A stretch of 42,600 nt of DNA, taken from Candidatus Woesearchaeota archaeon (GTDB lineage: Archaea; Nanobdellota; Nanobdellia; Woesearchaeales; JAGVYF01). The number at the start of each line of letters is the position of its first letter. The stretch's first letter is position 1. This document shows positions 5,653 through 7,659 of the stretch, piece by piece. The position numbers were made by a program, and so were the translations under genes. The DNA is taken from the NCBI GenBank assembly GCA_018303425.1, contig JAGVYF010000004.1, positions 1 through 42,600 of the forward strand. Direction: 5' to 3'. Under the pieces are notes generated by a model that worked only from the letters and a program-made list of their open reading frames with translations, searched no databases and was not told the DNA's origin.

Positions 5653-6936
5653 TTATTCTCCTTCAAATTCAACGAGATTAAAAACTTTGTAACCTGCATT
5701 TTCTAGTTTTTTCTTTCCCCCTATATCCGGCAAATCTATGATGAAACTGCATTCAACGATTTTTCCCCCCAGTTTTTGGACTAGTTTAGCTGCAGCTAAA
5801 GCAGTACCGCCAGTAGCAATTAAATCATCAATTAATAATACTTTATCTCCCGGGTTAATTGCATCTTTGTGTATCTCTATTTTATCTCGGCCATACTCTA
5901 ACTCATATTCTTCAGAAATTGTTTCTCCAGGCAATTTACCGGGTTTTCTAATTGGCACAAAACCTACTCCCAACCTATGCGCCAATACAGACCCGGTGAT
6001 AAAACCCCGGGATTCAATCCCTGCAACTATATCAATATGCATTTCCTTATATCTTTCAGCAAGCATTTCAATCATGTGATTATAGCCGTTTTTATCTTTT
6101 AATAAAGAAGTTATATCTCTAAACATAATCCCCTTTTTAGGCCAATGGGGAATTGTTCTAATTTTATTTTTAATATATTGAGAATCTTGTTTCAGATTTT
6201 CAATCACGGCAACAAGTAATTTGGTAACATTGCTTGCATTTTGTTTAAATACATCTAGAATAATTTCCCAGCTGACTGTTTCTTCATTTTCTTTCCAACA
6301 ATCGTAATCCGTACTCATAGCAACTGCCGCATAGGGAATTTTTAACTCATTAGCAAGTATAGCTTCAGTAGCAATGCTCATGTTAATCACATCTGCGCCC
6401 CATGCCCTAAACATATAAGATTCAGCTTTGGTTGAGAATCTAGGCCCCTCAATTGTGATTACTGTACCTTTAGGATGAAAATTGAACTTCAGTTTTTCAC
6501 AATTTTTAATAATGTTTGCCCTTAATTCTAAATTAAACGGTTCAGACATAGGCGTATGCGCGGCATTTCCTTCAATAAAACTTTCATGAAAACTTACATC
6601 TCTTCTTCTAGTAAAATCAATAAACTGGTCAAGAACTACCAAATGGCCGCGGGCAATTTCATCGCGCAATGAACCTACGGCAGTAGTTGCAAGTATATGC
6701 GTACAACCTTGGTCTTTCAACGCGTAAATATTTGCTTTGTAATTAACTTGCGTTGGAGGTATTGTATGCTTCCTGCCGTGCCTCGCAATTATGACTACAT
6801 CTATTCCCTTAATCTTGCCTGTTTTTAATGTAGATGTGGGCTTGCCGTAGGGTGTAACAATGTCAATCTCTTTACATCCTTCTAAAATGTTAGGATCATC
6901 TAAACCAGAGCCGCCAATTATGCCTACTTTAAACAT
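5653..6936 (-). CDS. Fused 5'-methylthioadenosine phosphorylase / adenine phosphoribosyltransferase
   Basis: 427 residues in one uninterrupted frame. Residues about 1-248 are a MTAP of the PNP/MTAP family: GGSGL (8-12), ARHGR (51-55), NMS (185-187) and the MTAP signature STDYDCW (208-214), where classical PNPs carry a different motif. Residues about 252-427 are an [14 protein letters not shown] start, ESRGF (308-312), the PRPP-binding loop [15 protein letters not shown] (366-380). MTAP releases adenine from methylthioadenosine, a polyamine/SAM by-product; APRT converts adenine plus PRPP to AMP, so the product of one half is the substrate of the other. Both active sites look complete. It lies 3 nt downstream of the Cys-repeat gene and is probably co-transcribed with it. 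Confidence 0.93.
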
Positions 6937-6939
6937 TTA

Positions 6940-7659
6940 TTATTCACCGGTAAATATTTTTTTGCAGTCTTCTCGGATAGTGCTATATTTAATCTCTTCA
7001 CAATATTTATTATCATTACTTGCCCTTGCAAGTCTAATGATACATGCATCTCTATCGATTATATTACTCATTTGATAGCAGGGTTCAATTATCCCAGATT
7101 TCTGAGCTATCATGTTATTGCATTTATTTAATTTAGACTCATCCGTAATATCTTTACAACCTTCCCAATCTAGTGTCTTTACTACAACTTCATAAAAACA
7201 GGCATTATTTTGTGTCCCTTTTTGAATGAACCAACAATAATCGGAATTATTATTTGCTATAGCATAATTTTTATAACAAACATTATTCCAATATTCATCC
7301 TCTTCTACAAGCTTACAAATCTCAACATCATTGGATATTTGTGATATTCCGGTGTAACAACTATACTTGGCTTTAGAGTTAAGGATTTTTTCACAGATTG
7401 AGATATCTTCTTTTGCTTCAGCAACTCTTACTAAGCATTCATTTTTAAAATCTTCAAATATGATTTGCAGACATAAGAGTTCATCATTATTTTTTAGCGC
7501 TTCATTATATTGTTCAACATCATTCTCTTTTGCAAGTTTATCCGGGTTTACTACCCTACTCGTAATTTCTTTAATATCTGTTTTATAGACATAACTCAAA
7601 AATAATAAAAATATTAAAGTAATTAAAATTAATTTACTTTTTTTTAACTTTTTAGCCAT
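6940..7659 (-). CDS. Membrane-anchored protein of seven 26-residue, two-cysteine repeats
   Basis: 239 residues. A short basic N-terminus and one hydrophobic helix (about 8-25) act as an uncleaved anchor; the rest is extracytoplasmic. From residue 63 there are 14 cysteines at 63, 75, 89, 101, 115, 128, 142, 154, 168, 180, 194, 206, 220 and 232, alternating 12 and 14 apart (one step is 13). Each unit reads roughly C-x11-C-x-x-x-A-x5-D-x3-C, giving a helix-turn-helix solenoid probably stapled by disulfides. No enzymatic motif is visible. First gene of the minus-strand run; its promoter is shared with the divergent PLP gene region. I do not recognise a named family; similar Cys-periodic proteins occur in DPANN genomes to my knowledge, but the function is unknown. 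Confidence 0.75.
   Translation of the reverse strand: MAKKLKKSKLILITLIFLLFLSYVYKTDIKEITSRVVNPDKLAKENDVEQYNEALKNNDELLCLQIIFEDFKNECLVRVAEAKEDISICEKILNSKAKYSCYTGISQISNDVEICKLVEEDEYWNNVCYKNYAIANNNSDYCWFIQKGTQNNACFYEVVVKTLDWEGCKDITDESKLNKCNNMIAQKSGIIEPCYQMSNIIDRDACIIRLARASNDNKYCEEIKYSTIREDCKKIFTGE

Follow-up and report, generated by a model that had tools for sequence, protein, structure and literature searches.

The locus described here raises the question of whether two enzymes that act in succession in adenine salvage, 5'-methylthioadenosine (MTA) phosphorylase (MTAP) and adenine phosphoribosyltransferase (APRT), are genuinely encoded as one protein in a Candidatus Woesearchaeota archaeon and, if so, what this protein may do and how it arose. 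The sequence analyzed is a stretch of 42,600 nucleotides from contig JAGVYF010000004.1 of assembly GCA_018303425.1 (hereafter the window), which lies on contig C4 of a source genome of 937 kb in 39 contigs that is 96% complete, so that ~4% may be missing.

The fused protein and its predicted activities

The gene (5653..6936, minus strand) is a single open reading frame (ORF) that runs from ATG to TAA through 427 codons with zero internal stops. Pfam recognizes PNP_UDP_1 at residues 3-246 (153 bits) and Pribosyltran at residues 276-403 (54.5 bits) of the 427-aa protein. The MTAP half (residues 4-246; 6199..6927, minus strand), delimited by its TIGR01694 match and by alignment with human MTAP, passes this NCBIfam equivalog (283.8 versus a cut-off of 274.85 bits), and the APRT half (residues 249-426; 5659..6192, minus strand) passes both NF002634 (273.8 versus 170 bits) and TIGR01090 apt (234.2 versus 185.85 bits). 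With both halves above curated cut-offs in one ORF, the proposal of the initial annotation that two successive salvage enzymes form one polypeptide holds, and its statement that both motif sets are complete is likewise borne out. The base-site motif STDYDCW occupies residues 208-214 of the MTAP half, with D210 and D212 aligning with Asp220 and Asp222 of the human 6-aminopurine site (TDYDCW), and is accompanied by the phosphate loop GGSG and by RHGRKH, TTAVGSL, and INMS (phosphate-site residues RHG 52-54 and TTA 84-86). The APRT half contains the 15-residue PRPP motif at 366-380, GIESRGF at 306-312, and the flexible catalytic loop KLPGETI at 334-340, with the loop ending LEYG. A PDB search yields human MTAP (2e-87) and bacterial APRTs (5e-64) as the top matches. 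An AlphaFold2 model built with 85 related sequences (mean pLDDT 93.7, pTM 0.75) contains both complete folds, and its top Foldseek matches are human MTAP, with 50-53% identity across the N-terminal half. The linker between the complete MTAP and the complete APRT is close to zero, as the C-terminal helix of MTAP (223-248) and the N-terminal helix of APRT (252-257) are separated by a 3-residue break.

Three bases upstream of the fusion start, on the same strand, lies a gene of 239 aa (6940..7659, minus strand), which is probably co-transcribed with the fusion. A family search with this upstream protein, which is cysteine-rich and carries a hydrophobic segment at its N-terminus, gave no match. 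The 3' end of the upstream gene contains GGTGA (6944..6948, minus strand), 7 bases before the ATG of the fusion gene and, judging from matching sites in relatives, likely its ribosome-binding site.

The reading that we consider highly probable is a bifunctional enzyme that would convert MTA, Pi, and PRPP to methylthioribose-1-phosphate, AMP, and PPi, and whose value would lie in co-expression, 1:1 stoichiometry, and proximity. The N-terminal half would cleave MTA phosphorolytically to adenine and methylthioribose-1-phosphate, possibly also accepting adenosine and 5'-deoxyadenosine, and the C-terminal half would combine adenine with PRPP to give AMP and PPi. This reading joins features seen directly in the DNA (the fusion, the family signatures, their recurrence, and the operon partners) to activities, a substrate range, and a metabolic role that are predicted from them. 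Three points count against it, namely a PRPP synthetase that was not found, a missing C-terminal tail of MTAP, and AMP-pathway scores that lie under cut-offs.

The first and last of these points concern the organism's own genome. PRPP synthetase (PF13793) was not found in the 96% complete assembly, which encodes two PRPP-using enzymes (the APRT half and an HGPRT-like protein); its absence may be an assembly gap, with import or another route as further explanations. A spermidine synthase, which could be a source of MTA, was also not found in this genome, where the sole candidate was rejected as an MnmC2-like methyltransferase. Dph2, whose reaction in diphthamide synthesis yields MTA, is represented by two fragments on separate contigs, and MTA in this organism would be expected to come from diphthamide synthesis. 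The Dph2 pieces lie at C34:23566-24222 and C9:7841-8005 of the source genome (G000), in frames of 268 and 84 aa, and may reflect either a split gene or an effect of the contig boundaries. In the archaeal AMP/RuBisCO pathway, AMP phosphorylase frees adenine and APRT returns it to AMP; the APRT half may therefore serve two adenine sources, and in the window organism it probably also recaptures adenine freed by AMP phosphorylase. The genome encodes a type III RuBisCO that scores over its cut-off (571 versus 497 bits), an AMP-phosphorylase-like protein just under the equivalog cut-off (529.9 versus 535), and an IF-2B-family protein that is closest to ribose-1,5-bisphosphate (R15P) isomerase and clearly under the cut-off (224.7 versus 314.1).

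The missing tail bears on the specificity of the MTAP half. In human MTAP, a C-terminal segment contributes Leu279 to the 5' pocket of the neighboring subunit, and in the Schistosoma enzyme a Gln at the equivalent position helps in the use of adenosine (PMC5147791). The helix carrying Leu279 is absent from the window MTAP half and from the 46 split relatives of the short type; it falls outside the 240-position TIGR01694 model and is not family-defining. Because this tail is missing, the preference of the MTAP half among MTA, adenosine, and 5'-deoxyadenosine may differ from that of human MTAP. Two further positions deviate from the human enzyme (Thr18 to Ser10 and Thr197 to Ser187), and Ser10 is the residue found in the adenosine-using S. 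mansoni enzyme (PMC5147791). Together with the absent tail, the status of the fusion as the only PNP_UDP_1 protein in its own genome, and the failure to find a PfkB-family adenosine kinase in that 96% complete genome, this substitution would fit an alternative in which the MTAP half acts chiefly as a phosphorylase of adenosine or 5'-deoxyadenosine and the enzyme is a general converter of adenine nucleosides to AMP. This alternative carries some weight but is distinctly the less probable one, since the MTAP half scores above the TIGR01694 cut-off and shares ~50% identity with human MTAP, and since sequence is no confident guide to specificity.

Occurrence, gene neighborhood, and possible assembly

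A domain-architecture search, as the initial annotation had proposed, covered 145 genomes from the order of the window organism and 371 from across the phylum (overlapping samples, together ~400), and extends the arrangement beyond the window contig. A single-ORF MTAP-APRT fusion was verified in 32 genomes (27 two-domain and 5 three-domain proteins), a lower bound because ORFs were checked on the DNA of a part of the MTAP/APRT pairs. Further candidate fusions, suggested by large open frames in seven genomes (G065, G046, G008, G113, G057, G102, and G060), were rejected when the DNA revealed stops between the halves. A scan of GTDB species with conserved peptides assigns the close relatives to Woesearchaeota and further Nanoarchaeota, and also detects the MTAP-APRT pair, always as separate genes, in Saganbacteria/Margulisbacteria/WOR-1, a Nitrospirae MAG, and Lokiarchaeota. 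Bacterial fusions suggested by full-length matches (Saganbacteria, Margulisbacteria, and the Nitrospirae MAG) all proved to be split genes. Two unusual loci were also noted: an APRT gene that is interrupted, with matches to two parts ~0.4 kb apart (L131:3845-4939, plus strand; genome G212), and an MTAP that carries 80 additional residues inserted behind the equivalent of residue 119 (L031:868-1938, plus strand; genome G099).

In four of the three-domain proteins, MTAP and APRT are preceded by an N-terminal PfkB domain whose nearest solved structures are adenosine kinases (3ubo and 4e3a). These adenosine kinase-like (AK-like) triple fusions (L110:493-2829, plus strand; L120:1501-3840, minus strand; L122:2962-5289, minus strand; L128:1903-4428, plus strand) comprise 776-842 codons and usually adjoin a gene for S-adenosylhomocysteine hydrolase (SAHH). 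The fifth (L115:1501-3834, minus strand; genome G195) has an N-terminal domain of ~340 aa before MTAP-APRT for which no family scored over the cut-off (the best was a weak APH match, 18.6 versus 23.2 bits) and a PDB search gave no match.

Clustering of neighboring genes identifies SAHH and a PfkB kinase close to adenosine kinases (AK) as the recurrent partners of related loci, in a variety of arrangements. The MTAP-APRT fusion follows SAHH and AK at L129 and AK and SAHH at L139, SAHH precedes an AK-MTAP-APRT fusion at L122, L128, L133, and L135, and AK, MTAP, and APRT are neighboring separate genes at L012 and L029. At L123 (genome G256), an 809-aa ORF in which AK is itself fused to SAHH (L123:4361-6787, minus strand; TIGR00936, 631.6 bits) lies 37 bases upstream of the MTAP-APRT fusion, so that four enzymes are contained within two proteins. 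In Saganbacteria and Margulisbacteria, the MTAP and APRT genes are followed by an MtnA-like gene, a name taken from reading the sequence and not from a family search. In these archaea, the commonest neighbor of split MTAP genes is a ZPR1 zinc-finger homolog (TIGR00340), often just upstream and found near MTAP at 20 loci (e.g., L042:3259-3840 and L086:1956-2672).

SAHH, AK, MTAP, and APRT lead from by-products of SAM (SAH and MTA) to AMP, which provides independent support for a role in adenosyl recycling. Because adenosine kinase and SAHH join it in related fusions and operons, the unit is best read as a module that would recover, as AMP, the adenosine moiety of SAM by-products, namely MTA and, in relatives, also SAH. 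The window organism's own genome shows greater reduction, and neither SAHH nor, as stated above, a PfkB-family adenosine kinase was found in its 96% complete assembly. That the fusion recurs, in some cases taking in a third enzyme that makes AMP, suggests that the adenine-recycling unit has been selected.

Given a real fusion, adenine might be handed straight from one active site to the other and never be released, and both the short helix-to-helix linker of the AlphaFold2 model and the repeated fusion of successive enzymes are consistent with such putative channeling. Nevertheless, the linker between the aligned halves ranges from 4 (L010) to 51 (L128) residues among the fusions, which argues against one fixed or conserved channel geometry; many relatives keep MTAP and APRT separate, and co-expression and stoichiometry alone would account for the fusion. 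Channeling is thus unlikely as an explanation, and the preferred reading of the bifunctional enzyme relies on co-expression, stoichiometry, and proximity instead. APRT is a dimer. MTAP in turn is a trimer (PMC5147791). From these two oligomeric states, the fused chain would be expected to build a higher-order assembly, and the fusion represents a natural analog of trimer-dimer protein assemblies made by design. A broader proposal can be formulated, that of an undescribed DPANN family of single-chain adenosyl-recycling enzymes (MTAP-APRT, adenosine kinase-MTAP-APRT, and adenosine kinase-SAHH) produced by repeated loss of stop codons and forming a trimer-dimer particle that keeps adenine inside, but as a whole it is speculative and improbable.

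The junction and the origin of the fusion

The nearest relatives of the window protein are encoded by two abutting genes in the same frame, with the junction 'AAGGTGAAA TAA ATG', and the corresponding window sequence reads 'AATCTGAAA CAA GAT', with a change in each of the three signals (ribosome-binding site, stop, and start). In the most similar relative (L004, genome G138), which is ~72% identical, the junction reads CCA AAG GTG AAA TAA ATG CCT CAT ATT, with a ribosome-binding-like GGTGA at the MTAP end followed by the stop and the APRT start in one frame. The window junction (AAT CTG AAA CAA GAT TCT CAA TAT) retains the codon number of L004 between the conserved flanks. At the end of its MTAP, AATCTGAAA (6190..6198, minus strand) stands in place of the ribosome-binding-like AAGGTGAAA of the split relatives, CAA (Gln250; 6187..6189, minus strand) in place of the MTAP stop TAA of L004, and GAT (Asp251; 6184..6186, minus strand) in place of its APRT start ATG. 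No ATG occurs near the window junction, and the sole in-frame GTG there belongs to the last MTAP helix and has no ribosome-binding-like site. Of 17 in-frame split pairs, a list that is biased because the search merges in-frame halves into one match, 16 have an ATG closely preceded by a ribosome-binding-like 4-mer, and both features occur near the junction in 2 of the 27 two-domain fusions (L080 and L123). The former (genome G117), a fused ORF with an internal ATG behind GGGTGAA, looks like an intermediate of fusion.

The tails of the split MTAPs offer a hint as to how the fusion was reached. Two main types occur: 15 carry a CxC tail, a feature shared with other archaeal MTAPs, and 46 are short and end right after the last helix. 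The window MTAP is of the short type, its MTAP part ending at about residue 248, where APRT starts. Since the short type ends where APRT begins, an order of events is suggested in which loss of the tail preceded in-frame abutment, which was followed by loss of stop and start. Two adjacent, co-translated genes would have lost the intervening stop, start, and ribosome-binding site, and the result would be fixed 1:1 production and co-localization of consecutive enzymes.

The number of origins was addressed with a tree inferred by maximum likelihood from both halves in concatenation (80 rows, 424 columns); this tree should be read with caution because the two halves show signs of differing histories. 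The fused state needs 9 changes on the best tree, at least 3 of them forced by strongly supported branches, and 0% of the bootstrap trees need just one. A single origin of all fusions is rejected by the AU test (p=0.012), as is a sister relationship of the window with the f62 fusions (p=0.0106). On the best tree, the window protein branches among split genes (L016, L018, L020, and L004). Fusion arose at least twice, with more origins being probable, and the origin of the window fusion was most likely separate from the others.

The opposite direction, with an ancestral fusion and the split in-frame pairs as products of fission, draws on those groupings that the AU test does not reject: the window with L010 (p=0.35), the window with the large f106 fused clade (p=0.198), and all fusions minus the two with CxC tails (p=0.115). 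Gain and loss are also not separable from the trees alone. Fission would nonetheless require the joint gain of a stop, an ATG, and a ribosome-binding site, many times over, since 16 of the 17 in-frame split pairs have all three, and the 9 changes, the lack of one-change bootstrap trees, and the rejected single clade speak against it as well; we therefore regard an ancestral fusion as unlikely. Least credible, to the point of being negligible, is the idea that two normally separate genes were joined by a mistake in assembly or sequencing, or in a variant strain: the six nearest relatives (L004-L007, L009, and L011) do have two genes with a single in-frame stop between them, but the stop, the start, and the ribosome-binding site have each given way to other in-frame codons at the codon number of L004, which no single error or miscalled base can explain, and ~30 other genomes carry the fusion. 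The frameshift or assembly join that the initial annotation had named as a possible undoing of its claim is in practice excluded by this in-frame replacement, by comparison with the split pairs, and by the same fusion in other genomes; its other concern, that close relatives might all carry two genes, applies to the nearest ones and fails in general, as other genomes are fused.

Comparison with known systems

The MTAP-APRT fusion is recurrent and apparently undescribed, each half being ordinary. A description was not found in the open-access literature, which agrees with the earlier claim that no characterized enzyme has this arrangement, even if absence is not provable in this manner. The main text of a 2024 survey of archaeal fusions mentions no MTA, SAH, or purine enzymes (PMC11237513). 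Archaea with reduced genomes have on more than one occasion packed the recovery of adenine from SAM by-products into single proteins, and the fusions join MTA, adenosine/SAH, and adenine recycling in one physical unit. The natural states are graded (separate genes, abutting genes, fusions with a leftover internal start, committed fusions, and triple fusions), and allow testing of what selects for enzyme fusion, be it channeling, stoichiometry, or genome compaction.

Compared with human and archaeal MtnP/MTAP (TIGR01694; 1cb0, 5eub), the N-terminal half is ~50% identical to the human enzyme and has the full core motif set, but it lacks the human Leu279 helix and the CxC tail of other archaeal MTAPs and continues into APRT. 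The C-terminal half corresponds to Apt (2dy0, 4mb6) over the full catalytic domain of 175 aa, with the flexible loop and the PRPP motif, but it is without its own start codon and its N-terminal helix is attached to MTAP. Fused enzymes of methionine salvage are known from Tetrahymena (MtnAK and MtnBD; PMC6302742), the only ones named in passages on fused enzymes of a review of the pathway (PMC6302742). Like the window protein, these place MTA-salvage enzymes in one chain, yet they cover other steps, and neither contains an APRT or produces AMP. FAMIN/LACC1, a multifunctional purine enzyme with all activities within one DUF152 domain (PMC6978800), resembles the window protein in performing several adenosine and purine reactions in one polypeptide, but it is not a fusion of two enzymes and is without phosphoribosyl transfer. 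Finally, Woesearchaeota have been noted to carry genes of the archaeal AMP pathway (PMC8421398), which employs AMP phosphorylase, R15P isomerase, and type III RuBisCO. In the window genome, RuBisCO is matched above its cut-off and the other two by candidate genes; the pathway is known with a free-standing APRT, whereas the APRT of the window is fused to MTAP.
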